DNA from: Acidobacteriota bacterium
GTDB lineage: Bacteria > Acidobacteriota > Holophagae > Holophagales > Holophagaceae
Length of the DNA stretch: 64,000 nt
Direction: 5' to 3'
Assembly: GCA_016213735.1 (NCBI GenBank)
Contig: JACQZU010000027.1
Span: forward strand, 1 to 64,000
The notes under the pieces were generated by a model, which did no database searches, was not told the DNA's origin, and saw only the letters and a list, made by a program, of their open reading frames with translations. Positions 5,919-23,550 of this stretch are shown in pieces; positions within the stretch are counted from its first letter, which is position 1; every line of letters begins with the position of its first letter. Made by a program: the position numbers and the translations under genes.

Positions 5919-6383
5919 ATGGGTTCCGGACACCTCAAGATGGGCGATCTCACCAAGGCCTGCGGGGTGAGCGACCAGGCGGTGCGGCTCTACGAGCGAC
6001 TGGGACTGCTGAAGCCCGTCGCCAAGACCTCCAAGGGCTACCGCCTCTACGATGCCGCCTCGGTGGAGACCCTGCGCTTCATCAAGCAGGCCCAGCGTAG
6101 CGGCTTCACCCTGGAGGAGATCGGGGTCCTGCTCCATACGGACATCCGGGACGCGAGGGCCTGCGCCGCCATAAAGGCCCTGCTGGACCGGAAGCTCCAC
6201 GCCCTGACCGAGCGAATGGTGGAAATCCAGGGGGTGAAGGATGTCCTCCACAGTCTGCGCCAGGCCTGCGAGGGGGAGCCGGGGTCCATGTGTCCGGCCT
6301 TCCTGAGGCTCTGCACACCCCACTGCGCCGTTCCCGATCCCAACGGGCCGCGTCCTCTCCATGAGGTGAACCATGCGGATTGA
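5919..6383 (+). CDS. merR: MerR-family mercury-responsive regulator
   Basis: This 154-residue protein has an N-terminal winged HTH (GDLTKACGVSDQAVRLYERLGLL) and a long dimerisation helix. Cysteines fall at 82, 117 and 125, plus C132 and C136. In Tn501 MerR the Hg(II) ligands are Cys82, Cys117 and Cys126, and the local pattern (Cys, eight residues, then Cys-Pro) is conserved, so Hg(II) sensing is well supported. The start has GGGAGG 5 bases upstream. It overlaps the downstream transporter-fusion gene by 11 bases. As the first gene of its own operon it resembles the Gram-positive mer layout rather than the divergent Gram-negative one. The extra CTPHC tail is not in Tn501 MerR. Confidence 0.85.
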   Translation: MGSGHLKMGDLTKACGVSDQAVRLYERLGLLKPVAKTSKGYRLYDAASVETLRFIKQAQRSGFTLEEIGVLLHTDIRDARACAAIKALLDRKLHALTERMVEIQGVKDVLHSLRQACEGEPGSMCPAFLRLCTPHCAVPDPNGPRPLHEVNHAD

Positions 6384-7860
6384 ACTGCTCGTCTTCGAGG
6401 GCTGCCCCAACTGGGAACCGGCTCGGGCTCTGTTCCAGGAGGCCATGGCCGCCCTGGGCATCGCAGGGGAGGTCCAGGAGATCCAGGTGGATTCCCTGGA
6501 GAAGGCCCAGGCGCTCCGCTTTCCGGGCTCCCCCACCCTGCGGGTGAACGGGGAAGACGTGGCGCCCCTTCCGGAAGGCTTCGAGCCCGCTCTCGGATGC
6601 CGGACCTACGTGGTCCATGGGCGCCGCCAGGGCCTGCCCGACCAGGAAGGGGTGTTGGCAAGCCTGCGCAAGGCCCAGGAAGGAGAGGCCCATGCCTGCT
6701 GCACCCCCCTGGCCAAGCCCAAGGCGGCAGCCGTCTGCCCGGCCTGCGGGACGGAAGGCAAGCCCGTGAAGCCAGTCACCCTTCGCGCCTTGCTCCAGTC
6801 TCATCTCAAGGCGTCCGTCCGGGACGAGGTGTACCGCTTCTGCGCCCATCCCGAATGCGCCATCGTGTACTTCAGCGCGGACACGGATCAGAATTTCACG
6901 CGGGCCGACCTCACGGTACGCGTGGGCGTAAAGGAACGGAGCGAACCGCGCCCCCTCTGCTACTGCTTTGGCCACAGCGCGGAGAGCATCCGGGAGGAGT
7001 GGAGCCGCACCGGGAAGAGCACCGTCCTGGACGCCATCAAGGCCGAGGTCAAGGCCGGGACCTGCCATTGCGAGGTGACCAACCCCGGCGGCGGCTGCTG
7101 TCTGGGGGACATTACCAAGGCGGTGAAGGCCCTGACGGCGGAACCCACCGAACCCGTTTCTGCCCAGGACTGCTGCCCACTTCGGGGCCCTCAAACCGGG
7201 ATGTGCCCTACGGAACCGTCGGACCTGAGCCCCCAGGTTGGACATCGGACGGTCTTGTCCGCCGTGCTCCTCGGCCTCGCGGCCTCCGCTTGCTGCTGGC
7301 TGCCCCTCGCCCTGGCGGGCCTGGGTGTGGCCACAGGCACCATGGGCGCCAGGATCGCCTGGATCCGGCCATGGGCCCTGGGGGCGCTGGCCGTGCTCTT
7401 GGTCGGGGTGATCGGCTGGTGGGCATTGAAGCGCTACGGCGGACCCGGAGAAAAGGACCGCTGCTGCATGGAACCGCCGCGCTTCCCCACGCTGCCCGTC
7501 GTCATCCTTGGCTTCTCGTTCCTCGGGGCCGCCGCCGCGCCGGGGCTGCTGCATCCGGGGCGGAACTCCACCCTCACGGCGGACGCGCCGCCCGGGCCTT
7601 CCGGAGGAATGCTCGTTGTGCTCTCCACCCCCAAGTTCGATTGCCCGCCCTGTGTCGGGACCCTTCCTCAGACCCTGGCAAAGACCCCCGGAGTGGCCTC
7701 CGTCCAGATGGACTTCGACAAGCGGGAAACCCGCATCGTCTTTCAGCCTGGCGCCGCTGCGGACGCAACCTTGGCGCGGTGGAAAAAGGAACTGGGATTC
7801 GAGGGGAAGGAGGCCCGGCGCGAGGCAAGGGCAACTGGCGGAACACCAACGGTCCAGTAG
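6373..7860 (+). CDS. Thioredoxin-like / CopZ-type / MerT / HMA (MerP-like) fusion, mercury transport
   Basis: This 495-residue protein joins four modules. Residues 1-105 are a thioredoxin-like domain of the type found beside mer genes (FEGCPNW, Cys11; GCRTY, Cys76), followed by Cys109-Cys110. Residues 120-255 match the N-terminal Zn/[2Fe-2S] domain of CopZ (CPAC at 122-125; Cys157, 162, 196, 198, 231, 233, 242, 243). Residues 291-392 are MerT-like with three TM helices, Cys307-Cys308 in TM1 and Cys364-Cys365 in the loop before TM3. Residues 412-480 are an HMA fold with FDCPPC (Cys424, Cys427). Topology by analogy to MerT puts the first two domains in the cytoplasm and the HMA domain in the periplasm, a continuous thiol relay inward. 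The gene overlaps merR by 11 bases and should be induced by Hg(II). No merA follows. The mercury role is inferred from MerR and the MerT motifs; the CopZ domain could instead handle copper. Confidence 0.8.
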   Translation: MRIELLVFEGCPNWEPARALFQEAMAALGIAGEVQEIQVDSLEKAQALRFPGSPTLRVNGEDVAPLPEGFEPALGCRTYVVHGRRQGLPDQEGVLASLRKAQEGEAHACCTPLAKPKAAAVCPACGTEGKPVKPVTLRALLQSHLKASVRDEVYRFCAHPECAIVYFSADTDQNFTRADLTVRVGVKERSEPRPLCYCFGHSAESIREEWSRTGKSTVLDAIKAEVKAGTCHCEVTNPGGGCCLGDITKAVKALTAEPTEPVSAQDCCPLRGPQTGMCPTEPSDLSPQVGHRTVLSAVLLGLAASACCWLPLALAGLGVATGTMGARIAWIRPWALGALAVLLVGVIGWWALKRYGGPGEKDRCCMEPPRFPTLPVVILGFSFLGAAAAPGLLHPGRNSTLTADAPPGPSGGMLVVLSTPKFDCPPCVGTLPQTLAKTPGVASVQMDFDKRETRIVFQPGAAADATLARWKKELGFEGKEARREARATGGTPTVQ

Positions 7861-7892
7861 GGCTCCACCCCCTTCCTTTCGGGGCTCTTGGG

Positions 7893-10073
7893 TCATGCCT
7901 TGGAATTCAACATTCTCAGCCCATTGAAGACCACCAGGAGCGAAGCCCCCATGTCAGCCGCGATAGCCGCCCACAGTGAGGCGTGACCGGCCAGGGTGAG
8001 GAGAATGAATACCGCCTTAACGCTCAAGGAGAATGTGATGTTCTGCCGGATGATGCGCAGCGTTTTCTGGGCGTGGGAGATCAGCCAGGGAAGGCGCGTA
8101 AGGTCGTCGGACATCAAGGCGATATCGGCGGTCTCGATGGCGGTGTCGCTGCCCGCCGTGCCCATGGCGATGCCGATGGTGGCGTGAGCCATGGCGGGTG
8201 CGTCATTCACCCCGTCTCCCACCATGGCCACGCATCCATAGGTTTTCACCAGGGCCTCGACGGCCTGAACCTTTTGCTCGGGCAGAAGATCGGCCTGCAC
8301 TTCCTCCAGCCCCAGGGCTTTCGCCACCCGATGAGCCGCTCCCGCGTGATCTCCGGTGAGCATGACTAAGTGCTGGAGCCCGACCTGCCTGAGCTTGGCG
8401 AGGATTTCGGCCCCTTCGGAGCGGACCTCGTCCGCCAAGGAGATGAGCCCCAACACGCCGGTGGCGTCACCCACCAGGATGACGGTGGCTCCTGTTTCTG
8501 AAGCCTGCCGGATCTGTTCATTGAGGGTGGTGGAATCAGATCCCTGTTCCGTGCCCCAACGAGGCGAACCAACCCATGCTGCCCTTTCGCCAACCAGCCC
8601 TCGTGCCCCCTTGCCGGGGATGATCTCGAAATCCCTGACTATGTCTAGTGTGATCCCTTGAGCCTTGGCATGGGCCAGGATGGCGCGGGCAACGGGGTGG
8701 TCGGTTTGTGCCTCCAGGCTCGCGGCGAGCTTAAGCACGCCGGATTTGGACAGCGCAACCAAAGGGATGACCGTGGCCACTTCCAGGGTCCCTCGGGTGA
8801 GGGTGCCGGTCTTGTCGAAGGCGATGGCCTTGAGGTGGGCCGGGGCCTCCAGAAAAGCGCCACCCTTGATCAGAACGCCGTGGCGGGCCGCCGAGGCGAG
8901 CCCGGAAACGATGCTAACGGGGGTGGAGATGACGAGCGCACAGGGGCAGGCGATCACCAGCAGCACCAGGGCGCGGTAGAACCAAGTGGACCACGGGCCC
9001 AACCCCAGCAACGGCGGAAGCAGGGCGACCAGGATGGCCAGGACCATGACGACGGGCGTGTAGATCCGGGCGAAGCGGTCCACCCACTGCTCCGCCGGGG
9101 CCCGGCGGTGTTGAGCCTCACCCACCATGCGGATGATACGGGCCAGCACTGTGTCGGAGGCAGGATGCGTGGAGACACCCACCAGTGTGGTATTGCCGTT
9201 GATGCTGCCTGCGTAAAGCGCCGCACCTGGAGCCTTCGCAACAGGAAGGCTTTCCCCTGTGATCGCGGCCTCGTTGATCTCGCCTTCCCCATCGACCACC
9301 TGGCCATCGAGCGGAACCCGTTCGCCGGGGCGGATCTGGAAGTGTGCCCCCACCGTCACTTGGGCGGGAGGAAGGTCCTGCGTCTCTCCGCTCCCGCCGG
9401 TCGTAAGCACATGCACCGTGTCTGGGGCCAGCTTGAGCAGGGATTGGACTGCACGCCGAGCCCGGCCCAGACTCCAGGCTTCCAAGACGAGCGAAACGGC
9501 AAACAGGGAGGCGACCGTGGCCGCCTCCAGCCATTCCCCGATGCCGATGGCCCCCAGCACGGCGATGGTCATAAGCAAGTTCATGTCCGGGCGCAGCCGT
9601 CGGGCTGAAAACCAGGCCTTGGGGAGGATGAACCAGGCTGCGGCGAGGGAGGCAGCTCCGTAGAAAATTCTGGTCATCACCGGAATCGAGTGGGCTCCCT
9701 CGACCTCCTTCCATCCCAAGGCACCCAGGACCCCAGCCCCTCCAAGCGCGTGGCTCGCCAAGCCCAGAAGGATCAAGATCGCGCTGATCACCGTCAGGGC
9801 GGTTCGGGCCTGGATGGCCAAGGGACGCCCTTGCCGATCTCTTTGGGTTTCTTCAACCCATGGTTCTCCCTGCATACCGGTGGCACGGACGGCCTGGAGG
9901 ACCGCCTCGGAGGAGGCCGGGGCCCCCTCCGAGAGGATCATCTTCCCGTTCAGCAAGTCGAAGGCGAGGTTTGCCTCACCCCCTACCAGCGGGCCCACCT
10001 CCCGCTTGAGAACAGCAATCTCCTCGGCGCAGTCCATGCCATGGATCTTGAAGGATCGCTTAGGCGTGCTCAT
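7893..10073 (-). CDS. P1B-type heavy-metal ATPase (Zn/Cd/Pb subgroup)
   Basis: The protein is 726 residues from the chosen ATG (MSTPKRSF). An N-terminal HMA-like domain carries only one metal-site cysteine (GMDCAEE, Cys15). Eight TM helices follow, with the CPC motif (VIACPCALVIS), the phosphorylation motif DKTGTLT, the HP locus (HPVARAI) and MVGDGVNDAPA. The last TM helix contains AADMGASLLVV, whose Asp is the extra ligand of the P1B-2 (Zn/Cd/Pb) group, so zinc, cadmium or lead export is the likely job, rather than copper. It is the last gene of the czc-type operon and overlaps czcA by 14 bases. It converges with the mercury fusion gene, 32 bases apart. Confidence 0.9.
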   Translation of the reverse strand: MSTPKRSFKIHGMDCAEEIAVLKREVGPLVGGEANLAFDLLNGKMILSEGAPASSEAVLQAVRATGMQGEPWVEETQRDRQGRPLAIQARTALTVISAILILLGLASHALGGAGVLGALGWKEVEGAHSIPVMTRIFYGAASLAAAWFILPKAWFSARRLRPDMNLLMTIAVLGAIGIGEWLEAATVASLFAVSLVLEAWSLGRARRAVQSLLKLAPDTVHVLTTGGSGETQDLPPAQVTVGAHFQIRPGERVPLDGQVVDGEGEINEAAITGESLPVAKAPGAALYAGSINGNTTLVGVSTHPASDTVLARIIRMVGEAQHRRAPAEQWVDRFARIYTPVVMVLAILVALLPPLLGLGPWSTWFYRALVLLVIACPCALVISTPVSIVSGLASAARHGVLIKGGAFLEAPAHLKAIAFDKTGTLTRGTLEVATVIPLVALSKSGVLKLAASLEAQTDHPVARAILAHAKAQGITLDIVRDFEIIPGKGARGLVGERAAWVGSPRWGTEQGSDSTTLNEQIRQASETGATVILVGDATGVLGLISLADEVRSEGAEILAKLRQVGLQHLVMLTGDHAGAAHRVAKALGLEEVQADLLPEQKVQAVEALVKTYGCVAMVGDGVNDAPAMAHATIGIAMGTAGSDTAIETADIALMSDDLTRLPWLISHAQKTLRIIRQNITFSLSVKAVFILLTLAGHASLWAAIAADMGASLLVVFNGLRMLNSKA

Positions 10074-13000
10074 GATCCGTCTCCTTCGGTTTCCCCACCC
10101 AGGCATAGAAACTCGGGAGGGCCAACAAGGTAAACAGGGTGCTGGTGATGAGGCCGCCCACCATGACGATCGCCAGGGGGCGCTCCAGTTCGCTCCCGCC
10201 GATGCCTAGCAGCATGGGCATGAGGCCAAGGATGGCGCTCCCGGCGGTCATGAGCTTGGGGCGCACGCGGCCCAGGCTCGCTTCCTTGAGGGCCTCGTGG
10301 AACGGCATCCCGGCGGCGACCAGATGCTTGGCCTGGGAAATGAGAACGAGGCTGTTCTGCACGGCCACGCCGAAGAGGCCGATCATCCCCACGATGGAGC
10401 TGATGTTCCAGGTCTCCCCCGCGAGCCAAAGGGCGAAGAGCCCCCCGGCGAAGGCGTCCGGCAGGGTCAGCACGACCACCATGACCTCTCGCCAGCGCCC
10501 CAGGGCTAGGTAGAGCAGGCCGACCACCAGCGCCAGGGCGGCCCCGATGGCTACTACCAGCCGCTTTTGGGTTTCCCGGGCCTCCTCAATCTTCCCACCC
10601 AGCTTCACGACGGTGCCCTTGGGCAGGGTCAAGCCCTTCAGGGCCTTCTCCAGACGATCCGCCGTGCCACCGAGGTCGCCCGTGGTGCGGACGTTCAGGG
10701 CCAGGCGCCGCTGGGCCGACTCACGCCGGATCAGGCTAGGGGTGCTGGCCTCCTCGAAGCGGGCGACCTGACCCAGTTCCACCACGCGGCCATCGTCGAG
10801 CACAAGTGGTAGACGCTTGAGGGTCTCGGGGCTGGTGCGGCCATCATCCGGGAAGCGGACCACCCGTTCGATGCGCTGAGGGCCGTCGAACCGGGGCGAG
10901 GTCTCGGTGCCTTGGAGGGCCGTCTTCAAGGTCCTCACGATCAGCGGTCGTGGGACATCGAGGCGCCGCAGGGCGTCTTCGTCCGGAACCACAGTCCACT
11001 TCGGCAGAGCCCCAGCCCCTTCGGGGGTAATGGACGCGACACCCGGCACCTTCGCCAGTGATTCCTGAATCTCGGGGAGCTTGGCTTGCAGGGCGGCCAG
11101 ATCCGGGTGGAAGAGCTTCACCTGGATGTCTGCCGGAGTGCCCCCGATGCCTTCGGCGATGCGCATCTGCATGGGCGTGGTCAGTTCGACTGGATAGGGC
11201 AGTTCCTCGGAGATCTCAGCGACCTCCTTTTGCACTTCGGGGGTCCGCTTGGTGCCATCCAGCACCACCAGCACGTCAGAGATCGTGTGGGGCATGGGGT
11301 CCTCGGTCAACTCGGAGCGCCCGGTCCGGCGGTAGACGGACGAGACGCCGGGGAGCTTCACGAGCTTCTGTTCGAGCTGGAAGTTGGCCTCATCCACTGC
11401 GGCAAGGCTGGTTTCCGCAGGCAGGATGCTGTTGAGGAGGAGGGCGCCTTCATCCAGGTTGGGCAGGAAGTTGCTTCCCAGGTGCAGGGCCAGCCAGAGG
11501 CTGGGGATGGTCAGGCCCAGGGCCAGCACCCGCACAATGGCGCCATGGCCCATGGCCCAGTCGAGGGCAGGGCGGTAGACGCGCTTCAGGGCCACCACCA
11601 GACGGGGCTCTTCAAGCTGCGCACCGGGTGGCAGGAACCGCTCCACGAGGGCGGGCACCAGGGTGAAGCTCAAGACCAGACTGAGGGTCATGGCCGTGGC
11701 GATGGCGACGGCCAGCGGCGCATAGAGCCTGCCCGCCAAGCCCCCGATGGCCAACAGGGGAATGAAGACCGCCAGGATGACCAGCACCGCCGTGAGGACA
11801 GGAACCCCTACTTCAGCGGCAGCCCGGGTGAGGGCAACGCGCCGGGGCTCGATGTGATCCCGGTGCTCATGCAGTCGGTGGGCGAGGTTCTCCACCATGA
11901 TCACGGCGGCGTCCACCAGGAGACCCACGGCGATGGCGAGGCCGCCCAGGGTCATGGCATTGAGGCCCATACCGGCGGCGTTCAGGGGGATGGCCGCCCC
12001 GAGGGTGGCCAAGGGCAGCACGGCGATGACGATCAGGGCCGCTCGGAGGTTCCCCAGCAGGAGCACGAGCACCCCGGCCACGAAGAGCCCGCCCAGCAGG
12101 AGGGCCAAGGTAACGCCGTTGAGGGCGTGGGTGACGAGTCCTCCCTGGTCATACATGAGGGTCAGTTCCATGCCCTCCGGGAGACTCTGGCGGAGTTCGT
12201 CCAGGGCCTTTCGGGTCTCCTGGGACACGGTCAGAGTCTCCGCCGTGGGCTGTCGGACCACCCGAAGGCTCACGTCTTCGTGGCCCTGGTGCCGGGCGAG
12301 CCCGCGCCGGAACCCAGCACCTTCCCGAACTTCAGCGACATCGCCCAGGAGGACCGTTCCCCGGGGGGTCTTCAGTCGGAGCTTCTTCACGGCCTCGGGC
12401 GAGGCCGCGAGGCTGCCAACGGTGATGAACCAGCCCTTGTCCTGGATCTCCATCACCCCGGCGGCGCTGTCCTGATGGGAGCCGTCCATGGCGTCGATGA
12501 TCTGGGTGAGACTCACGCCCTGGAGCCTCATGCGCTCGGGCTGGACGATGACCTGAAGCTGGCGCTCCTCACCCCCCAACCGTTCAACACGGGCGACCCC
12601 GGGGACGGCTTGAAGCCTGGGGATGAGCACCTTCTCCGTGTGGTCCCGCAGCTTCATGGGATCCGTGGCGGGGCCTTCCAGCACGATCTCCATGATCTCC
12701 TGGAGGCGTCCGGCGGCGCTGGAAACGAGCGGGGCCCGGGTCCCCTCGGGGAAGTTGGCGATGATGCCTGCCAGGCGTTCGGCCACGAGCTGCCGGGCCC
12801 GCCAAGGATCTGTGTCGCCCTCGAAGGACACCACGACCTGGACCACTTCGGCCTGCACGGTGCTCACCACGCGCTTGACGCCGGGAAGGCCACCGATGGC
12901 CTGTTCCACCGGTTGGGCCACGGTCAGTTCCAGCTCCGTGGCGGCCCGTCCCGGGCTCTGGATGAGGAGGTTGAGGCTGGGGAGAGTGAGGTCCGGGAAG

Positions 13001-13212
13001 AGGTCGCGCTTCAGGGTGGCGAAGCTGGCGAGCCCCGCGACGCCCCAGACCATGGCCAGGGCGAAGACCCACCCCTTGCGGGGGAGCATCCAGTCAAACC
13101 AGCGGCGGATCAGGGTCCGGTGCTGGGGCGTGTAGACCTTGTAGGGGTCGTCGGGCATCGCCGGATCGAGGGGAATGTCCGGATCCTGCGGAAGATTCGG
13201 CTCAGTGGTCAT
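10060..13212 (-). CDS. czcA: Heavy-metal RND efflux pump, inner-membrane permease (CzcA/CusA family)
   Basis: This is a 1050-residue RND permease of normal family length. TM1 near residues 48-68 is followed by the porter domain. A TM2-TM6 block includes GLAIAVGLLVDAAVIMVEN, which carries the conserved acidic proton-relay residues of metal RND pumps. A second porter repeat and TM7-TM12 complete the fold. It takes divalent metal from periplasm or cytoplasm and passes it to the adaptor and outer-membrane channel encoded just upstream. It overlaps czcB by 11 bases and the ATPase by 14. The C-terminus ends in DHEHA. Zn/Cd/Co is inferred from the ArsR regulator and P1B-2 ATPase; Ag/Cu cannot be excluded from sequence alone. 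Confidence 0.9.
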   Translation of the reverse strand: MTTEPNLPQDPDIPLDPAMPDDPYKVYTPQHRTLIRRWFDWMLPRKGWVFALAMVWGVAGLASFATLKRDLFPDLTLPSLNLLIQSPGRAATELELTVAQPVEQAIGGLPGVKRVVSTVQAEVVQVVVSFEGDTDPWRARQLVAERLAGIIANFPEGTRAPLVSSAAGRLQEIMEIVLEGPATDPMKLRDHTEKVLIPRLQAVPGVARVERLGGEERQLQVIVQPERMRLQGVSLTQIIDAMDGSHQDSAAGVMEIQDKGWFITVGSLAASPEAVKKLRLKTPRGTVLLGDVAEVREGAGFRRGLARHQGHEDVSLRVVRQPTAETLTVSQETRKALDELRQSLPEGMELTLMYDQGGLVTHALNGVTLALLLGGLFVAGVLVLLLGNLRAALIVIAVLPLATLGAAIPLNAAGMGLNAMTLGGLAIAVGLLVDAAVIMVENLAHRLHEHRDHIEPRRVALTRAAAEVGVPVLTAVLVILAVFIPLLAIGGLAGRLYAPLAVAIATAMTLSLVLSFTLVPALVERFLPPGAQLEEPRLVVALKRVYRPALDWAMGHGAIVRVLALGLTIPSLWLALHLGSNFLPNLDEGALLLNSILPAETSLAAVDEANFQLEQKLVKLPGVSSVYRRTGRSELTEDPMPHTISDVLVVLDGTKRTPEVQKEVAEISEELPYPVELTTPMQMRIAEGIGGTPADIQVKLFHPDLAALQAKLPEIQESLAKVPGVASITPEGAGALPKWTVVPDEDALRRLDVPRPLIVRTLKTALQGTETSPRFDGPQRIERVVRFPDDGRTSPETLKRLPLVLDDGRVVELGQVARFEEASTPSLIRRESAQRRLALNVRTTGDLGGTADRLEKALKGLTLPKGTVVKLGGKIEEARETQKRLVVAIGAALALVVGLLYLALGRWREVMVVVLTLPDAFAGGLFALWLAGETWNISSIVGMIGLFGVAVQNSLVLISQAKHLVAAGMPFHEALKEASLGRVRPKLMTAGSAILGLMPMLLGIGGSELERPLAIVMVGGLITSTLFTLLALPSFYAWVGKPKETDHEHA

Positions 13213-14335
13213 GGTCTTCCCCTCCGCTCTTGCGCTTGATCTGGAGGGACTTCAGCAGGTAGGCGCCCTCGCCGACCACGGTCTCGCCGGGCTTCACCCC
13301 GTCGAGCACCATCACGTCGGTTCCGAACTCGGGGCCCCGGTGCACGGGGCGGAACATGGCCTCGTCACCCTCCTTCACGAAGACACCCCAGGTGCCTTCC
13401 ACCTGTTGCAGGGCGCTCTGAGGGAGGACCACGGTTTTTGCCAGAGGCACATGGACCTCCAGCGGCGTGCCGGGGATCGGGAGTGGGCCGCCCAGCAGGC
13501 GCAGGCGGTAGCTGAGGCGTCGGGTGTCTGTGGTGAGGGTCATGGGGGTGCCCTCCAGTCGCGCCTTCCACCGCTGGCCGTCCCCCTTGCGGACCTCGGT
13601 CACGGCGCCGGTCTGCCAGTTCTGGGGTGCGGGGAGTGGCAGTTCCAGGCGGGCGATGGCGGCGGAAGCAGCCTGGAAGCTGCCCAGTTCCTGTCCGGCT
13701 TCGACCCCCTGGCCGAGCTGGATCTTGTAGGCGGTGACCGTGCCAGCCTTCGGAGCTTTCACGGTCAGGGCGGCGCCAGTGGTCTCGGGGTTCTGCCCTC
13801 GGGCCTCCAGGGCAAGGCGGGCCGCTTCTTCGTCGGCGCGGGCTGTGGCGGCTTCGCTCTTGGCAACTTCCAGCTCGCGCCGGGATCCCGCTTGGGCGTC
13901 GAAGAGGCGCTGCTCGCGGGCCAGTTCGGACTCGGTGCGTTCGCGCTTTGCCCGAGTGGACAGCCAGTCAGCTTTCAGTCGGGCCAGCTCGGGACTCTGG
14001 ATGGTGAACAACCCGGCACCGGCTGCGACGTGCTGGCCGGGCGGGACCTGGATTGCCGAGACGATGCCCTTCACGGGGCTGCTGAGGATGGCCTGGGCGG
14101 ACTCATCCCCGATGGCCTCAGCGGGATACCACGCGCCCTCGGCCTTGGGCTCGGGGACGACGAGGAAGCGGAGCCCCCGGATGTCCTTCAGCGGGAGGTG
14201 CATGTGCTCGTCGCCCTTGGTGGCCTCATCCTTGTGGGCCTCCTTGGTTTCAGGGGGCGCAGCAGCCTTGCGGTCGCAGGCAACTGTGGCCACCAGTGCG
14301 AGGGTCAGGAGGGAGAGACGTAGGACGTGGTTCAT
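13202..14335 (-). CDS. czcB: Heavy-metal RND efflux periplasmic adaptor lipoprotein (CzcB family)
   Basis: This 377-residue membrane-fusion protein starts with a lipoprotein signal (LALVATVAC, lipidation at about Cys20). Met/His residues follow (EHMHL), then a biotinyl-lipoyl half (SSPVKGIVSAIQVPPGQHV), an alpha-hairpin (about 125-185), the second lipoyl half and a beta-barrel domain. The C-terminus is DHDH, a possible metal-binding tail. It bridges CzcA and CzcC. Its start overlaps the czcC stop by 4 bases (ATGA), and its own stop overlaps czcA. Confidence 0.88.
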   Translation of the reverse strand: MNHVLRLSLLTLALVATVACDRKAAAPPETKEAHKDEATKGDEHMHLPLKDIRGLRFLVVPEPKAEGAWYPAEAIGDESAQAILSSPVKGIVSAIQVPPGQHVAAGAGLFTIQSPELARLKADWLSTRAKRERTESELAREQRLFDAQAGSRRELEVAKSEAATARADEEAARLALEARGQNPETTGAALTVKAPKAGTVTAYKIQLGQGVEAGQELGSFQAASAAIARLELPLPAPQNWQTGAVTEVRKGDGQRWKARLEGTPMTLTTDTRRLSYRLRLLGGPLPIPGTPLEVHVPLAKTVVLPQSALQQVEGTWGVFVKEGDEAMFRPVHRGPEFGTDVMVLDGVKPGETVVGEGAYLLKSLQIKRKSGGEDHDH

Positions 14336-15507
14336 GGGTTCACCCCGTTGGTGAGGGCCTGGACTTCGGCGGACAGAAGGTGGGCGGCGTGGAGGCGGCG
14401 GAAGGAAGCGGCCTTCGCCTCCAGGAGCTGGCGGCGGATGGGCAGGGCCTCGGAAGGCCGCTCCTTGCCCTCGCTGAGGCGCAAGCTGATCGCCTTGAGG
14501 GACTGCTCGAAGCCCATGAAGGGCAAGGGTGGTGTGGCGGTCTGAAGCCGGGCCAAGGCGGATTGGAAGCGGGCATCCAGCTCCAGCAGGGCCGTCTCCA
14601 GCTCACGCTTGGTGGCCTGGAAGGTGGCCTCCGTCTCCCGCCGGACGGCCTGACCTTCACCGGGGCGGGGGAAGCGATACGCGAAGCCCACCTTGCCGAT
14701 GCGGTCCTCCCCCTCCTTCCCGTAGCTACCCCGGAGGCTCCACCGGCTGGTGGCGATGGCCTCCTGGTGCCTGAGGGCTTGCTCCTCCAGATCCAGGCGA
14801 TCCTGGATGGCTCGACGCAGGGTGCTTTCCTCGAACTTGGCCTGAAGGCCATCGGCGGGTAGCAGGGACGGATCCCCCGGGGCGGCCAGCGCGGTGGGTG
14901 CTGGGGGAACATCAGCCAGAGACCGCAGCACGGCCCAGGTGTTCAGCCGCAGGCGGCGGGCCTCGTCCAGATCAGCCTGGGCGCGGAGCTGCTCGCCTTC
15001 GACCAAGGTCACTTGGAACGCGGGGTCTGCACCGGCCTCCAGGCGCACCTGGGCGGCTTTGAACCACGCTTGCACCGTCACGAGATCCGCCTCGCGGAGG
15101 TGCAGGACCTCCTCGGCCAGCCAGGCGTCCAAGTAGGCTTGGCGAAGACGGAACCGGGCCTCGACCATGGCGGCGCCACGAAGGGCGGGGTCGGCATGTC
15201 CGAGGGATGCCTCCAGGCGGCTCCGGGTGCCCTGCGACAAGAACAACGGCAAGTCCAGATCCACGGTCTGGTCCGTCGTCGTCGGAGCGACGGGGTTCGT
15301 GCGCGGCCCGGCGGAGAGGCCAAGGGCAGGCCCCTCGCGCAGGAAGCCGCGTGTGCTGGCCAGGGCCCGGTGGCGTTCGGCGAGGAGGGCCTCAGTCCGG
15401 AACTGTTCGGGGCTGGTCCGGGCCCGTTGGACGATGTCGTCATAGGAGAGGGGCGGCGCCTGCGCAAAGAGCAGGCAGGGCATCACCCCGAGAAGGAGAG
15501 ATCGCAT
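14332..15507 (-). CDS. czcC: TolC-like outer-membrane efflux protein (CzcC family)
   Basis: This is a 391-residue protein with an N-terminal signal peptide (MRSLLLGVMPCLLFAQA) and two long alpha-helical repeats (Ala/Leu/Glu/Arg-rich, about 25-210 and 215-390), as in trimeric TolC-type channels. It forms the outer-membrane exit duct of the Czc pump. It overlaps czcB by 4 bases and is separated from the small Cys-rich protein gene by 72 bases, the only real gap in the operon. It is somewhat shorter than many CzcC proteins (about 420 residues). Confidence 0.85.
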   Translation of the reverse strand: MRSLLLGVMPCLLFAQAPPLSYDDIVQRARTSPEQFRTEALLAERHRALASTRGFLREGPALGLSAGPRTNPVAPTTTDQTVDLDLPLFLSQGTRSRLEASLGHADPALRGAAMVEARFRLRQAYLDAWLAEEVLHLREADLVTVQAWFKAAQVRLEAGADPAFQVTLVEGEQLRAQADLDEARRLRLNTWAVLRSLADVPPAPTALAAPGDPSLLPADGLQAKFEESTLRRAIQDRLDLEEQALRHQEAIATSRWSLRGSYGKEGEDRIGKVGFAYRFPRPGEGQAVRRETEATFQATKRELETALLELDARFQSALARLQTATPPLPFMGFEQSLKAISLRLSEGKERPSEALPIRRQLLEAKAASFRRLHAAHLLSAEVQALTNGVNP

Positions 15508-16667: not shown

Positions 16668-18515
16668 TCATGACTTATTCATATCACACCAATTAGTGCC
16701 ACTTTTCCCATCAGAAATCATCGGAACATCGAATCCAACGCCAGCCATAGCCAATTTCAGAAGATTCATTTCATGGGTAACTTCACTTTTTGTAACGGAA
16801 ATCAACAGTTCGTCATGAACAGTAACAAGCAGATGGCCACGATGGGGGGTACGGTAATAGTTGAGAATCGCTTGCTTGGTGCAATCGGCCGCAGAACCCT
16901 GGATGAGAACGTTGATCATTTTGTATTCAAAAGTCCTCATTTCCCCATCTTTGTACACCGGCGATTCACAGTGATACTCGCGACCGCCCCAAGTGCGCAG
17001 TGGCTGCCTGCGCTCAGCCTTGGCCCGCATGGCCTGGTTGATCTCGCGGATGCCTGGGAACAGGGCCAGCACACCTTCCTTGATGGCTCTGGCAGTGGCG
17101 ATGTCAACTCCGCCTGACTCTGCCATCCGGCTTACGCCCATGCCATAAATCAGGCCGAACACCACTGTCTTGACTGGCTTTCGCTCAAGTCGGTAACCCA
17201 ACATTTCAGACAGTTGGGCGCGCACCAATTCGTGCAGGTCAAGGTCCGGCTTGGATGCGTAGGCACCGAACAGCGCGCCACCGGCGTACTCAGCCAAAAT
17301 GCGTAATTCCTGCTGAGAGTAATCCCGATCGATCAGGATGTGTCCTTCCTCGGGGACGATGTAGCGCCGGACCCTGGGCAGGACAGGCAGCGCGAAGGGC
17401 GGCGGCGTACCCTGCGGGAAGAAGTCAGGGAATCCCCCCGGGATGTTCTGGAAGTTGGGGGAACTGGACAGCCGGCCGGTCACCGCCCCGGCCGCCTTTC
17501 CCTTCTCGAAGTTGCGGGTCTGCGACCAGGAGGTATGAATGCGACCACCAGTGGCCTCCGCCTGCCGCAGCCAGGGTGTCATGAATGTCGCCAAGCAGGT
17601 CTTCAGGCTTGCACGGTATCCCAGGACTGCCTTGAGGGTCGGGTCTAGGACAGCCCGCGATAGGTTTTCCTTGTCGAACTTGTGCTTGCCGGTGGGAGTA
17701 AGATCCAGGAGGTCCAGATCAATTTTGTTGGCACGGCGCAAGGCGTCGAGCAGTTCCCGGCCCGCATCAAGGTTCAGGTCGGGCATCCCCAGCGTGAGGA
17801 GAATCCAGGCTTCCAGTTCCGTCTGGGCGCGAGTGAACCGCTCCACGTCCTCGGATAGGCGCTGAAGATCCACGGGGATCCCCCGGCGCTCATTTTCGAG
17901 GAGGATCAACATGAGTTCACGTTCCCGGTCGTAGGGTTCGACCATCCCCCTGTCGATGATCTCCGGCATGAGAAACTGGAACAGGGCGCCGGTGCGCTCC
18001 ACATCGCCCACCGCGTATCGGCCCACCAAGTCGCCGGGAGCCTGGGCGATGAAGGCCCCCCAGCCCTTCACCCCCTTTTGGACGATGCGGTGGTGGACGA
18101 GCCAATCATGGAGTTCCGTGGCCTCTTCCGGGGCGCGTCCGAGCAATCGCTCCGCCGAAGGCTTTAAGGCGAACGATGGCGCGTGGGGATCGCTCAGGAA
18201 GAGCAGGAATAGTGTGTCGTGGTAGTGATGCCAAGGCAGGCGGGGCATACCCATGTGTGTCTCCGCCACGTCGATGTCGAACTTGCCGTTGTGGAAGAGC
18301 AGGCCATCGGGATGGTCCCACACGGCCCGGAGTTCCGACTGCACCGCCTCGACCGTGGAGTTGTTGCCGGCAGGGTGATCAAACGCAAGGTATTTGGGTG
18401 GATGCCCAGGAATCTGGAGGGCAACCCCGACTGGAATAGGCGGGTATTCCGGCCGGGGCAGGATCGGATGGGTTTCAAAATCGATGACTACCGGCTGTGG
18501 GATGGGCGTAGCCAT
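16668..18515 (-). CDS. Family A DNA polymerase with 3'-5' exonuclease domain (phage/mobile-element type)
   Basis: The protein is 615 residues from MATPIPQP. Exonuclease motifs are IDFET (Asp12, Glu14), HNGKFDID and YAVGDVERT. Polymerase motif A is DRDYSQQELR, motif B RKPVKTVVFGLIYGMG and motif C VHDELL. It has no 5'-nuclease domain and is much shorter than cellular PolI (about 930), as in phages and plasmids. Its start overlaps the primase stop by one base (TAATG), so the two are coupled. A longer in-frame start at 18599 lies wholly inside the primase gene and has no family support. Codon use is less GC-rich than in the flanking genes. It probably replicates the element that carries it. Confidence 0.9.
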   Translation of the reverse strand: MATPIPQPVVIDFETHPILPRPEYPPIPVGVALQIPGHPPKYLAFDHPAGNNSTVEAVQSELRAVWDHPDGLLFHNGKFDIDVAETHMGMPRLPWHHYHDTLFLLFLSDPHAPSFALKPSAERLLGRAPEEATELHDWLVHHRIVQKGVKGWGAFIAQAPGDLVGRYAVGDVERTGALFQFLMPEIIDRGMVEPYDRERELMLILLENERRGIPVDLQRLSEDVERFTRAQTELEAWILLTLGMPDLNLDAGRELLDALRRANKIDLDLLDLTPTGKHKFDKENLSRAVLDPTLKAVLGYRASLKTCLATFMTPWLRQAEATGGRIHTSWSQTRNFEKGKAAGAVTGRLSSSPNFQNIPGGFPDFFPQGTPPPFALPVLPRVRRYIVPEEGHILIDRDYSQQELRILAEYAGGALFGAYASKPDLDLHELVRAQLSEMLGYRLERKPVKTVVFGLIYGMGVSRMAESGGVDIATARAIKEGVLALFPGIREINQAMRAKAERRQPLRTWGGREYHCESPVYKDGEMRTFEYKMINVLIQGSAADCTKQAILNYYRTPHRGHLLVTVHDELLISVTKSEVTHEMNLLKLAMAGVGFDVPMISDGKSGTNWCDMNKS

Positions 18516-21022
18516 TAGAATGGCCTGCCCTTCCGGGGAGCCGCACCCGGGGTACCAGGTGCCTCCACAGGACCGGTTGTGGCATCCGCCGTTCCGCAAC
18601 CGCCCAAGTCTGGTGCGGGTCCCGCGGTTGCGACAGGGTCACTGGTGGCGGAGTCTTCCGCAACCAGATCACCCTGGGTAGTGGCAGGATCCGCTTCCGC
18701 TACCTTGCCGCAACCCGGAGTCTCGCTCTGGGGCTTGGTCGGCGCGGGTGGCGGGGCTGGTATCCCCTCCACAGGAGGAAGGTACCTGTCGAACACTTCC
18801 AAAAATTCCACGCGAACGTAACCCTTGGGCGATCGACCACCAACCTTGATGCTTTTGCTGTGGATGCCGAATTCCCCAAGACGCTTTCCGAGCTGTCGGG
18901 CGGTAATGGGCTTGCCGTGCGAATACTCTCCCCAGGCCTTGCTGCTATCCGATGCGAGTTCCTTGATGAGATCCTCCGTGGTGATTTTTTCAACCTTCTT
19001 GGCTAAGAAAGCCCCCCGGATATCGGCAAGCAGTTCGATGGATGTGGAAGGTGAAACCGCCCCATCCTGGGATAATTTCAGGGCAGCATTCCTAGCGAGG
19101 CTGGGCCAGTCTCCACCGGCCAAATCTGCGATTGCCAGGAGGCTTTCCCAATTGTCCTGCGCCCGGTCGTGCAGTTCGTCCGGCAAGCTGGGGCGTGCTT
19201 CAGCCAGAAATGGACCAGCATCCTGCGCGAACCTAGCCAGTTTTGAGGCAAGATCGCTGAACAGCCGCGGGTCAGCATGGCGGAGGCGTTCACTTCTCTC
19301 CGATTGCAGTTTTCGGCGTAGCACGACAAGGATGGACCGATCGACGATTGTGGCAGACAGGTGGCCAATCCCCGCAATGGCCTTGGCTGCCCAGGTGGAG
19401 AACGGTACCGGGTCCTGATCTTCACCAACGCAGCGCCAAACATAGGAAGTCTGGCGTGTATGTCCAGAGTTGATGATGCCCCGGAGTTCTTCGTTCTCCT
19501 TCATGAACGCATCAGCCTCATCGATCAGCAGCGTCGGGCAGAACGCTTCGATCACGCGGTAGACCGCTGCAGGTGAAATGTTTGAAGCAACCAAGGCCCG
19601 GTAGGCAAGCCGGTTGATGAAATCAATAGCTTGGGTCTTACCGCAGCGGGGTTCGGGGGAGCTGAAGACAAGCAGCGGGGCCACCTTGAACCAAGTGATC
19701 AGCCATGTGAAGGCCACCCAGAGGGCAATGGCGATTCCCACTGCAGGATCCGCAACGACAAACCGATTGAAGGCCTGACGGATCTCCTCCAGGAGTGAGG
19801 CACCATCAACCGGCTCCGGCCAGGGCTCAATCTCCTGGAACACGAGGGGCTTGTGGTTTGTCGCCTGACCAATGGGGCGCTCGTTCTCCACCGCCTTGTC
19901 TAGGGCGCTCACTCGAATACCCAGGGCAGCAGCTTCTTGCACCCGCACTTGTTCATATTCCAGCGGAGCAAGTGCGGCCAGACGCTTCACCACATCAGCG
20001 GTGGTTTCGGGTGGCGGCTCGTGGGTCGTTCCTTCAATGCAAGCTCGGACAGCTTCAAGGCCCTGATCCAATGCCATGTCATTGAAGTCGGTGGCCTTTT
20101 CGGAGCGCCTGTCACCCCAGCAGGGCTGTACCATCCGGCCGCCCACAGCCCGGGCCGTTGCCGAAGCCAGAGTTAGCCCTGGGTTACCTTCGGAAAGGTC
20201 ATCATCAGCGCACAAGACGATTTCGTTGCCTGGGTATTTCGACCGGATCGCCTTTGCTACTGATTCCAAGTTGCCAGCGTCAAAGGCCACCACCACACAT
20301 CCTTCGGTAGCCTCGTGTACACTCGCGGCCGTAGCGTAACCTTCCGCGATGTAGATTGGCCCAGGGGTGACCTCCCCGATCCGGAAACTGCAGCCTTTCT
20401 TCCGACCGTGCTTCAGGAACAGCTTCCCGCCTTTGGGGTTGATAAATTGCAGGCTGGTGATTTCGCCATCGGCGTCGTAGAGCGGAATGAGCAAAGTTTC
20501 CCCGCGAACGCGGAGCCCATGAGACACGACCTTTTTCGTGGTCAAGTAGGGATGACTTCCGAAAGGTGTGGCTGACTCCCACAACTTCCTCGCCCTTGCT
20601 GCCGCGGCGGACCTGTGTGCCGCCTCATCCGCCTCGAACTGGATGCGATCGGCTTCCGCCTGGGTGTAAAAAGCGGACTCCTCCTCCGGCGTCAGGCTGC
20701 GGCCAAGGTCCGCACGCCAGCGGACCCAGCCGTGGCCATCAGCGTGGTTCTGGTAACCACCGCTGGGGATTGGGCCAGGACGGAGAAGGTATGCCCCATC
20801 CATTCCATTGCGCCCGGAAATTGGGGTGCGGTGGATATGACCATCGGCGGTGGGGGAATCGGGAAACACCAGTCCCCTCGCGGAGGCCGCATCCATGAAT
20901 TGGTTGACATAGAAGGCCAGGCTTGGCGAACCGAGTGGATTTCCATCGAAGTTGAAGCTGGAATCTGTCTGCATTGGGAACCTAAAATTGGAGTCGGAGC
21001 GAAAGGTGACCAGGCTGATCAC
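18515..21022 (-). CDS. TOPRIM primase / DUF3631-type helicase protein
   Basis: This protein is up to 835 residues (an alternative ATG at 20974 gives 819). The N-terminal part contains a TOPRIM fold: the Glu motif in IYIAEGYATA and the acidic pair in IVLCADDD. A C-terminal P-loop domain of the DUF3631 type has Walker A SSPEPRCGKTQ and Walker B PTLLIDEADAF. The last 90 residues are a Pro/Ala/Gly-rich tail. Such proteins prime and unwind DNA for phages and integrative elements. It sits directly upstream of, and is coupled to, the family A polymerase, making a compact two-gene replisome. The GTG at 21022 lacks a good ribosome site, so the start is uncertain. Confidence 0.82.
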   Translation of the reverse strand: MISLVTFRSDSNFRFPMQTDSSFNFDGNPLGSPSLAFYVNQFMDAASARGLVFPDSPTADGHIHRTPISGRNGMDGAYLLRPGPIPSGGYQNHADGHGWVRWRADLGRSLTPEEESAFYTQAEADRIQFEADEAAHRSAAAARARKLWESATPFGSHPYLTTKKVVSHGLRVRGETLLIPLYDADGEITSLQFINPKGGKLFLKHGRKKGCSFRIGEVTPGPIYIAEGYATAASVHEATEGCVVVAFDAGNLESVAKAIRSKYPGNEIVLCADDDLSEGNPGLTLASATARAVGGRMVQPCWGDRRSEKATDFNDMALDQGLEAVRACIEGTTHEPPPETTADVVKRLAALAPLEYEQVRVQEAAALGIRVSALDKAVENERPIGQATNHKPLVFQEIEPWPEPVDGASLLEEIRQAFNRFVVADPAVGIAIALWVAFTWLITWFKVAPLLVFSSPEPRCGKTQAIDFINRLAYRALVASNISPAAVYRVIEAFCPTLLIDEADAFMKENEELRGIINSGHTRQTSYVWRCVGEDQDPVPFSTWAAKAIAGIGHLSATIVDRSILVVLRRKLQSERSERLRHADPRLFSDLASKLARFAQDAGPFLAEARPSLPDELHDRAQDNWESLLAIADLAGGDWPSLARNAALKLSQDGAVSPSTSIELLADIRGAFLAKKVEKITTEDLIKELASDSSKAWGEYSHGKPITARQLGKRLGEFGIHSKSIKVGGRSPKGYVRVEFLEVFDRYLPPVEGIPAPPPAPTKPQSETPGCGKVAEADPATTQGDLVAEDSATSDPVATAGPAPDLGGCGTADATTGPVEAPGTPGAAPRKGRPF

Positions 21023-21057
21023 CCGAGGAGCCTTTCGGTCTCACGTGAAAGTGAGGA

Positions 21058-21091
21058 TGCCCCTGGGAAGATGCGCTTCTCCCCAGGGGCA
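21058..21091 (-). terminator. GC-rich stem-loop between element genes
   Basis: TGCCCCTGGG (21058-21067) and CCCAGGGGCA (21082-21091) form a perfect 10-bp stem with a 14-base loop. It is just past the stop of the 192-residue gene and before the primase gene on the minus strand. No T-tract follows, so it is a transcript-end or attenuation hairpin rather than a proven intrinsic terminator. Confidence 0.5.
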
Positions 21092-21096
21092 GGGTT

Positions 21097-21675
21097 CTAG
21101 TGCAACTGAGTCTTAGTGTTATTGAACTGGCGGGACATCTGATCGGCCTTGGCCAATGCCTCGATGAAAGGCCGAATGTCTCTCAAGCTCAAGGTGAGCC
21201 AATACGGTGTTTTCGACCAGTTTCCATCCAGCAGCTCGGCTACGGACAACTTGATGAACCATGAAACAGGAGAGCCCGTTCTAGCGTATTTACAGACCGC
21301 AACCCGCAGCTCGCGGTTCCCTGCCTCATTGGGAACACTGCCAACATGGGTGGTCTCATCCAACGAAGGGTTGTTGTTCGCCCCCTCAGTGATTTTTCCA
21401 GCCTTTGCACAGGTGGCTGCGACCGGGTAAGCCAGGCTTGCTGGAAACACCACCCCCCGAAGGAGGTCCTTCTTCCCATCGTTCTTGGAGAATGCAAGTG
21501 CGCGCACCCGCCCATGCTCGTTGATGGGTTCGAAGTAAAGCTCCAAAGATTCTGCATCCATTCGTCGGGGGATTGATGCAATCAAGCTTGCCGACGGCGG
21601 CGGAATCAGCTTTTCGAGGGAATCGGACGAACCGAGATCCGAAAGCAAGGTCCTGAAATCTGGCAGGTCACTCAT
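21097..21675 (-). CDS. Hypothetical protein of the mobile-element remnant
   Basis: This is a 192-residue protein of no family I recognise. It has no signal peptide or TM segment. The middle contains a stretch with conserved-looking aromatic and charged residues (SPVSWFIKLSVAELLDG). The start MSDLPDF has GGGAG 8 bases upstream and overlaps the excisionase-like gene stop by 8 bases. The position between an excisionase-like protein and the primase suggests a replication accessory or recombination role, which is only a guess. Confidence 0.6.
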   Translation of the reverse strand: MSDLPDFRTLLSDLGSSDSLEKLIPPPSASLIASIPRRMDAESLELYFEPINEHGRVRALAFSKNDGKKDLLRGVVFPASLAYPVAATCAKAGKITEGANNNPSLDETTHVGSVPNEAGNRELRVAVCKYARTGSPVSWFIKLSVAELLDGNWSKTPYWLTLSLRDIRPFIEALAKADQMSRQFNNTKTQLH

Positions 21676-21880
21676 CCGAGGCTCCCTTCTCGGAGGTCTT
21701 GAGCCCGGCGATCCATGCTGACTCATGTTCAGCAAGGACGACCGTGCGGGAGCCGATCTTGGTGGCGATCAGCTTCCCGCTTCTGATCTGCTCCCAAACC
21801 TTCCCTACTGAAATACTGAGGGATGCGGCAATTTCAGGGACGGAGCGGCCCCTCGGGGCCGGGGGTGAAGTGGGCTTCAT
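21668..21880 (-). CDS. Excisionase/MerR-like helix-turn-helix protein
   Basis: This is a 70-residue protein. The start at 21880 has a strong AGGAGG 5 bases upstream; the longer frame to 21946 does not. Residues RSVPEIAASLSISVGKVWEQ followed by IRSGKLIATKIGSRTVV form the HTH-plus-wing pattern of excisionases (helix_turn_helix_17 type). Such proteins direct excision or act as small regulators in integrative elements. It heads the operon with the 192-residue protein, primase and polymerase. No partner integrase is found in the window. Confidence 0.7.
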   Translation of the reverse strand: MKPTSPPAPRGRSVPEIAASLSISVGKVWEQIRSGKLIATKIGSRTVVLAEHESAWIAGLKTSEKGASDE

Positions 21881-22014
21881 GAAACCTCCTGTGTTTTCCG
21901 GTTCACGGGTCTCGTGATCGGTACACAGAGGTTCAGGTCGGGACACTCAATGGACCCGCATCTAAGCCGCCTCAATTCCGCTGCTCTTACCTCACATCTG
22001 TGAGACCAGGAGGC

Positions 22015-23325
22015 CTAACGAACAACGCCACTGAGGAAGGTTCTCCCAGGCGGCAACGGCCTGGAGCCGGGCATTCGGAACTCGCTACCCTGCGCAGGAG
22101 CCCGGGAAACCAAGTCTTCCAGGCCAGAGATCATCATCTGAAGACGGGATTGGGCTGGACCGCGGCTAATTGTATCGAGGTCAGTCCGTGTACGAAGATC
22201 CTGCATTAGCAATACCGCAGTTCTATAAGACAGCCATAGAAATGGGTCTGGAGAGTGTGGTGGTGCCCAGCCCGTTTTGTGCTTTTCCATGGGATCTCGC
22301 ATCAAGTCCAGGCCTGGCTCTTTTCCAGTGAGGCTGGTCAAGACCGTCCAGACCAACTTCTTCAGGTAGCGGGTTGGGTGGATTCCCTTTGTGGGTGGGT
22401 GGCTGGCGCAGTACAGGTCTCCATATTTTGGGACGCCCAACGGAGTATTCAAAGATTCCAGCAGGTTCGGCTTTGGGGCTGCTGCCTGGAGAATGGCTTC
22501 ACATTCCCTGATCAGCAGCAATACCGGGTAGCCACCCAAGAGGCCCTTGGCACTTTCTTTCTTGCGCACTCCGATAAATTCCCGCGGGCCGGCGGTTGAT
22601 ATGGGTTCTGGGGTTCTTGTGGCTTCGGCGTCAGGGGTGGGTTCGTCCACTCCTGTTTCAGGATTGAAAAAGGGTTGCGACGCCAATTCCAAGAGAGTTT
22701 CCAGTCCTTGAAGCTGGCTTGGCCACCATGGTTCGAGCCTTGGATCGGCGAGTCCCTCGGCATGGAACTTCAGGAACTCTACATCCTGTTGTGGTACTCC
22801 ATCCCAGTCCGATTTCTCAAGGCCTTTGTTATGTTCCTGTGCGCGTTTCTGGGCTTTCTCCAGGCCCAACTCCATCAAGCTCTTGGGGAACATGTATTCC
22901 GTACGGCTTCCCTCGAATGGCTTTTGCCATGCCCAATCTGATGCGAGGGCCCCGATCCTCCATCGAGCCTCTGGCGTCAGATTCCGAAGTTGCTCGGCTA
23001 GATTTCCTGCGGTCCGGGCCGCGGATTTCAATTCGCGTTTCACCGCCGTGGTGACGGTCTCGCGGTTTCTAGATTTGCTCCAAGCGGCGGATTCGATCTT
23101 GAAGGCGCCACAGGCAGCCAGGATCGCCCGCTCAATCCCAGCAAGAGTCAACTGGGCGCCATTTGGAGCTTCCGGCCGAGAACCACCTGGAGTGGCATCG
23201 AGAACGATGCACACCATTTTCTTGAGGTCGTCTGTGGCCGGAGCGGAAGCCACCTCAGGGTCAGCCCGATTCCTTTCGTCCTGGGGCTGCTGGTCCGATC
23301 GCTGGGATGGCTTTGAATGGTTCAC
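22015..23325 (-). CDS. Hypothetical protein of the mobile-element remnant
   Basis: This is a 436-residue soluble-looking protein of no family I recognise, with a GTG start and only a weak ribosome site. The first 30 residues are polar and disordered (Gln, Asp, Pro). A basic helical region follows (about 85-115). A Pro-rich linker (about 225-250) separates N- and C-terminal halves. No nuclease, HTH or P-loop motif is visible. It is the first gene downstream of tRNA-Phe in the element and shares the lower GC of its neighbours. A role in replication or regulation of the element is possible but not shown. Confidence 0.6.
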   Translation of the reverse strand: MNHSKPSQRSDQQPQDERNRADPEVASAPATDDLKKMVCIVLDATPGGSRPEAPNGAQLTLAGIERAILAACGAFKIESAAWSKSRNRETVTTAVKRELKSAARTAGNLAEQLRNLTPEARWRIGALASDWAWQKPFEGSRTEYMFPKSLMELGLEKAQKRAQEHNKGLEKSDWDGVPQQDVEFLKFHAEGLADPRLEPWWPSQLQGLETLLELASQPFFNPETGVDEPTPDAEATRTPEPISTAGPREFIGVRKKESAKGLLGGYPVLLLIRECEAILQAAAPKPNLLESLNTPLGVPKYGDLYCASHPPTKGIHPTRYLKKLVWTVLTSLTGKEPGLDLMRDPMEKHKTGWAPPHSPDPFLWLSYRTAVLLMQDLRTRTDLDTISRGPAQSRLQMMISGLEDLVSRAPAQGSEFRMPGSRPLPPGRTFLSGVVR

Positions 23326-23474: not shown

Positions 23475-23550
23475 TGGTGCCTGGAGCCGGAATCGAACCA
23501 GCGACACATGGATTTTCAGTCCATTGCTCTACCAACTGAGCTACCCAGGC
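23475..23550 (-). tRNA. tRNA-Phe(GAA)
   Basis: The full 76-base cloverleaf is visible. The acceptor stem GCCTGGG pairs with TCCAGGC and is followed by encoded ACCA. The D-stem is GCTC/GAGC, the anticodon stem is ATGGA/TCCAT with loop CTGAAAA (anticodon GAA at 23515-23517), and the T-stem is GCTGG/CCGGC with TTCGATT. The 3' end points towards the mobile-element remnant, the usual orientation for a tRNA used as an integration site. Confidence 0.97.

Follow-up and report, generated by a model that had tools for sequence, protein, structure and literature searches.

What does a bacterium do with a single polypeptide that carries four metal-handling domains, and how did such a chain come about? 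In the window (the whole 64,000-nt stretch that we analysed, from contig JACQZU010000027.1 of an Acidobacteriota metagenome-assembled genome, MAG), one open frame of 495 codons encodes such a protein directly behind a MerR-family regulator gene (Table 1). The preliminary description of this DNA, drawn from its letters, had reported an uninterrupted frame with a cysteine in FEGCPNW (C11), the pairs C307-C308 and C364-C365 and a C-terminal FDCPPC (C424, C427). All of these are present, and profile matches along the gene reproduce the domain order that it proposed. Since the plus strand carries the real gene, an antisense frame of 596 amino acids (6106-7896) can most likely be dismissed as a high-GC shadow.

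Table 1. Positions in the window of the fusion gene, its parts and the neighbouring metal-related features
Feature	Start	End	Strand	Basis or remark
MerR-type operator/promoter, TTGAGTTTGTACCAGGGTATAGAC	5870	5893	+	-35-like TTGAGT, 19-nt spacer, GTAC-N4-GTAT dyad
MerR-family regulator	5919	6383	+	Overlaps fusion gene start by 11 nt; NCBIfam ZntR/CueR/MerR matches
Four-domain fusion gene	6373	7860	+	495 aa
DF-family thioredoxin-fold domain, aa 1-104	6373	6684	+	NF049942; C11 and C76 conserved in alignment
CopZ N-terminal-type [2Fe-2S]/Zn domain, aa 106-262	6688	7158	+	NF047645, PF18423, alignment with 2hu9
Fusion junction and linker, aa 266-286, DCC onward	7168	7230	+	ORF1/ORF2 ends of split loci L023 and L004
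MerT-like three-helix part, aa 287-399	7231	7569	+	PF02411 below cut-off; hydropathy, charge; alignment with plasmid MerT
MerP-like HMA domain, aa 410-486, C424-P-P-C427	7600	7830	+	PF00403 below cut-off; MerP structures 1afi/1osd
P1B-type ATPase, Zn/Cd/Pb/Hg class	7893	10106	-	TIGR01512, 501.9 vs 313.5; convergent, 32 nt from fusion gene
CzcABC-type RND efflux genes	10060	15507	-	CzcA 10060-13212, CzcB 13202-14335, CzcC-like 14332-15507
ArsR/SmtB-family metalloregulator	15846	16220	-	NF033788, 73.9 vs 55; adjoins efflux genes

The first two domains are members of curated families. The N-terminal one scores 84.7 bits against NF049942, the DF family (cut-off 70; residues 3-94), and the second 127.8 bits against NF047645, CopZ_Nterm_CC (cut-off 100; residues 108-247); zf_CopZ (PF18423) matches the protein with 69.6 bits against a cut-off of 28.4, and Fer2_BFD matches weakly in the CopZ part. 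The top PDB match of the whole protein is 2hu9, the N-terminal domain of CopZ (1e-19), followed by MerP and other HMA structures. The other two parts score below the curated cut-offs: residues 287-363 reach 16.4 bits against MerT (PF02411, cut-off 32.9; the split relative L023 reaches 20.2) and residues 423-477 reach 22.3 bits against PF00403, just under its cut-off of 24.8, while the protein scores 18.6 against 92.55 for MerP (TIGR02052) and 27.4 against 180 for MerTP (NF033556). What stands of their naming as MerT- and MerP-like is the character of the sequence and its cysteine pairs, namely three hydropathy peaks, C307-C308 in the first transmembrane helix (TM1), C364-C365 in the predicted cytosolic TM2-TM3 loop and the CxxC metal motif of the HMA part. 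An AlphaFold model computed from five sequences was unusable (mean pLDDT 40.8, pTM 0.23).

The CopZ part contains C122, C125, C157, C162, C196, C198, C233 and C243, in addition to C109-C110. The first eight all align with the metal ligands of 2hu9 from Archaeoglobus fulgidus CopZ, which upholds the CopZ-type identity proposed earlier, and C196 and C198 are invariant in all 46 sequences compared; from this alignment of ligand cysteines the domain is predicted to bind a [2Fe-2S] cluster and Zn. The first domain had been called thioredoxin-like, and this is true of its fold, but it belongs to a family of DF (seleno)proteins and has CPNW and no CxxC, C11 and C76 being the sole cysteines conserved among its relatives, so that a plain thioredoxin role is unlikely. 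Hydropathy indicates three membrane helices, and the TM2-TM3 loop holds five Lys and Arg residues against one in each other loop. By the positive-inside rule this excess predicts that the DF and CopZ-type domains lie in the cytosol and the HMA domain outside, in agreement with the N-in/C-out topology first suggested.

We found full-length copies of the fusion with 85% (G009, locus L021), 74% (L022) and 57% (G018) identity to that of the window, which makes four occurrences in about 500 genomes searched, with 396 drawn from across the phylum Acidobacteriota; the parts are thus not always separate genes elsewhere. The closest copy lies on contig JACPUT010000002.1, in a MAG different from the window's, and comparison of the two gave dN/dS values of 0.36 for the DF domain, 0.19 for CopZ, 0.40 for the linker, 0.22 (0.215) for MerT and 0.37 for HMA, and 0.28 overall. 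Purifying selection is thus seen in every domain. Since an 85% identical full-length gene exists in another MAG and dN/dS is 0.28, the gene is no assembly artefact, and a check of 6373-7860 for a frameshift or bad join revealed none. The low dN/dS of the MerT part also bears on the idea that the protein is a membrane-tethered scavenger or sensor accessory that performs no net transport and uses the MerT part as an anchor. Its divergent MerT scores would suit such a protein, but both MerT cysteine pairs are retained in fused and split forms, and we regard this idea as scarcely credible. L022 comes from a fragmented MAG (G177, identical to G100) whose contigs, with a low coverage of 1.4-2.2, are possibly misbinned, which makes the taxonomic assignment of this MAG unreliable. 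It holds three versions of the operon, one fused (L022), one with DF-CopZ and MerTP genes (L023) and one with CopZ and MerTP genes (L025). The contigs that carry them resemble another family most, which could reflect misbinning or transfer.

The split relatives indicate how the fusion gene was assembled. Adjacent genes for MerR, DF-CopZ and MerTP occur in L023 and in L004 (genome G014), and MerR, CopZ and MerTP genes, with no DF, in L005, L006 and L025 (G021, G038 and L025). In L023 and L004 the DF-CopZ frame (ORF1) ends in ..QDCCAPSKPxCC, the MerTP frame (ORF2) starts with MSTQDHDCCPPxGPQTG.., and between them lies a 47-aa, one-helix ORF that ends in CGC. This small ORF (MATAAVDPIREARRQERRGQLKLLAWVLGLVTLLVVLRILAGPGCGC, at L023:5122-5287, with a counterpart in L004) is missing from the fused genes. 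The window and G009 genes follow ORF1 through DCC and then continue with ORF2 past its DCC, as a deletion of ~220 nt between GA[CT]TG[CT]TGC repeats would give. The junction of L022 is different, with a longer ORF1 part (..DCCAPSKP) and a later entry into ORF2 (..KAGHRTVLS). Trees reject a single clade of fused forms (p-AU 9e-5 for concatenated DNA, 0.008 for codon positions 1+2 and 0.009 for MerTP protein) as well as a clade of window, G009 and L022 (p-AU 8e-4 and 0.014); in the tree of CopZ protein alone a single fused clade is borderline (p 0.048). A single origin of the fusion is therefore rejected by the trees, and at least three changes between fused and split states are needed. Because the junctions differ and the unfused gene order is found elsewhere, these changes were probably fusions rather than splits, with which the small junction ORF of the split forms agrees. 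The fusion gene would thus be the adjacent DF-CopZ and MerTP genes of a MerR-controlled operon, joined into one.

We then considered the control of the operon. The promoter 5' of the MerR gene reads TTGAGT-TTGTACCAGGGTATAGACC-TTAGCC in the window. In nine loci, window included, the operator is conserved without indels ahead of the operon and has in common a TTGA-type box, a 19-nt spacer and a GTAY-type dyad. This geometry is also that of the operator between merR and merT in a plasmid mer operon, TTGATTCCGTACTTTGGTACGGAGTTTAG (TTGATT-CCGTACTTTGGTACGGAGT-TTAG). The operator pattern matches once in the window and never in shuffled sequences; it matches once in the 3.59-Mb genome and is likewise single in G014, G018, G021 and G038. 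With the operator unique in the genome, the MerR regulon looks like this operon alone. Aligned with plasmid MerR, the regulator has cysteines at all three positions of the Hg-binding triad and a last loop that is one residue shorter. The NCBIfam models for ZntR, CueR and MerR all score 93-97 bits, none above its cut-off, and do not separate Hg from Zn, Cd or Cu.

Evidence on the metal comes from the company that the parts keep in other genomes. Among 25 fetched stretches with CopZ-N outside the window's family, 13 have a MerT-like ORF within 2.5 kb, and all six sampled MerT neighbours score above the Pfam cut-off, the one in G411 adjoining a DF gene and not CopZ-N; CopZ-N genes also occur without MerT. 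In G398 the order is CopZ-N (NF047645, 128.4 vs 100), MerT (59.9 vs 32.9) and MerA (524.6 vs 454). G087 has MerT/HMA, MerA (600.9) and CopZ-N in that order, and in G165 a MerA (568.6) lies ~2 kb from CopZ-N; both of these also exceed the curated cut-off. In G411 a MerR gene is followed by a true MerTP (NF033556, 214.6 vs 180) and a DF protein (109.4 vs 70). Each part of the fusion is hence independently tied to mercury transport genes. As CopZ-N lies beside merT and true merA, and DF follows a true merTP, the module appears to be of the mercury type, and mercury is the likely metal of the fusion protein.

The neighbourhood of the gene in the window, on the other hand, speaks for a second reading, in which the metal is thiophilic but not mercury (Cd, Pb, Zn or Cu), the CopZ-type domain feeds the P1B-type ATPase and CzcCBA, much as CopZ of A. 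fulgidus supplies a Cu-ATPase, and the MerT part has drifted from mercury. The TIGR01512 ATPase is a close neighbour, and five relatives (G009, G014, G021, G398 and G139) also encode a homologue in the vicinity of the module. The MerT and HMA scores below threshold, a MerR that scores as high for ZntR and CueR, and the lack of merA in the genome also fit this reading. Against it are the mer geometry of the operator and the occurrence of CopZ-N and DF genes in operons that also encode true MerT, MerTP and MerA, and we consider it possible but doubtful. The copper role that the CopZ name would suggest is kept within this reading. The CzcA assignment comes from TIGR00914 (640 bits vs a cut-off of 701), with further matches to TIGR00999/TIGR01730 among the efflux genes, and the CzcC-like gene is named by position alone. 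A tRNA-Arg called by ARAGORN within that gene (15045-15127, minus strand) is probably a false positive. Elsewhere in the window, DNA-polymerase-like and primase/helicase-like genes, recognized by eye at 16668-23325 beside a tRNA-Phe (23475-23550), are possibly an integrated mobile element, and a minus-strand frame of 1416 aa (46887-51137) resembles, by eye, a BcrAD/BadFG-type activator of 2-hydroxyacyl-CoA dehydratase in fusion with additional parts.

The preliminary description had also noted the lack of merA and had suggested that the redox-active CopZ-type domain might replace or supplement reduction. The first claim extends to the whole genome (97.2% complete), where no MerA (TIGR02053) scores above the curated cut-off (best 319 bits vs 454); nor does one in any of the ten genomes searched that carry fused or closely related split forms, which would accord with MerA-independent detoxification in a single chain, the [2Fe-2S] CopZ-type or the DF domain reducing imported Hg(II). 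To our knowledge, no Hg(II) reduction by this fold has been described. A passage of PMC7558416, citing Sazinsky 2007, reports that the Fe-S domain of A. fulgidus CopZ reduces Cu(II), and the extension from Cu(II) to Hg(II) is an analogy that we count as unsupported speculation. CopZ-N coexists with MerA elsewhere, hence is no substitute for it there, and the DF domain is without CxxC, so the suggested reducing role is not supported and we hold it to be very improbable. A MerA-like protein close to the module in G038 falls under the MerA cut-off and represents a general FAD oxidoreductase. No HgcA was found in nine genomes, and none passes the cut-off in that of the window; mercury methylation was rejected as a reading. 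A MerB search gave no match, its control likewise matching nowhere. A selenocysteine reading was also rejected: the in-frame stops of some matches are ordinary gene ends, and G000 has no SelB above cut-off.

Taken together, we favour, with a probability of roughly 0.6, a mer-derived, membrane-anchored metal-relay protein under MerR control for Hg(II) or another thiophilic metal. This reading builds on the CopZ-N and DF genes in true mer operons, the operator geometry, the MerR cysteine triad, the conserved CopZ cysteines and purifying selection; the MerT and HMA scores, the MerR metal class left unassigned by NCBIfam, the lack of merA and the Zn/Cd/Pb/Hg-class efflux neighbours count against it. 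MerR, through its single dedicated operator, would turn the operon on, and C424/C427 of the periplasmic HMA domain would capture the ion. It would then move to C307-C308 within TM1, onward to C364-C365 in the TM2-TM3 loop and finally to the CopZ-type and DF domains, which are rich in cysteine and would buffer it in the cytosol. From these domains the metal may be delivered to thiols of the cell or to the efflux ATPase encoded next to the fusion gene. We infer the identity of the metal, its direction and the hand-over steps, as well as the part of the ATPase. According to a passage of PMC4570782, citing Nakahara 1979, import of Hg without MerA makes cells Hg-hypersensitive, which also counts against it. 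A complete mercury defence in one polypeptide without mercuric reductase, in which the metal is captured, passed on and sequestered or reduced in the cytosol on the [2Fe-2S] domain, favoured enough for repeated independent fusion, seems unlikely to us.

The locus ties to mercury transport two poorly understood accessory families, CopZ-N Fe-S and DF, both with selenoprotein members. It would offer a covalent relay made by nature, whose hand-over steps could each be addressed by mutating one cysteine pair. With a single gene reached from separate ones at least three times, the operon is also a clean example of repeated gene fusion. It also brings to notice mer transport modules without MerA, and raises the question of how the metal is disposed of.

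Compared with known systems, the expectation that the parts are normally separate proved partly true, since MerTP has a family of its own (NF033556) and a plasmid from Planctomycetes encodes a CopZ-MerT-HMA fusion. The latter protein (QDV81057.1, 411 aa, Planctomycetes bacterium K2D plasmid pK2D_1) has CopZ-N, MerT and HMA in the order of the fusion protein and, unlike the MerT and HMA parts of the window, all three above Pfam cut-offs; it lacks the DF domain, comes from another phylum and has no MerR annotated alongside. Its gene (L047:5947-7182; CP036351.1 37939-39174) is annotated 'Mercuric reductase', a misannotation, as it has no MerA domain. A scan of IMG/VR with this protein gave no match. 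In the literature searched, with subscription journals mostly outside its reach, we found no paper on the four-domain order. Databases already contain the MerTP fusion and the CopZ/MerT/HMA chain; by contrast, within that literature the chain of four domains and the repeated way in which it arose seem not to have been described. NF033556 shares the MerT-like helices followed by HMA, to which the window protein adds two cytosolic domains. A. fulgidus CopZ, a soluble copper chaperone, shares the [2Fe-2S]/Zn domain and has its HMA fused directly behind it, whereas in the window protein a membrane part separates the two, which are predicted on opposite sides, so it does not qualify as such a chaperone. 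The DF family is normally a stand-alone gene, as beside MerTP in G411, and here forms the N-terminal domain. The closest parallels are the split operons L023, L004, L005, L006 and L025, which have domains, order, regulator and operator as in the window, with the genes separate.
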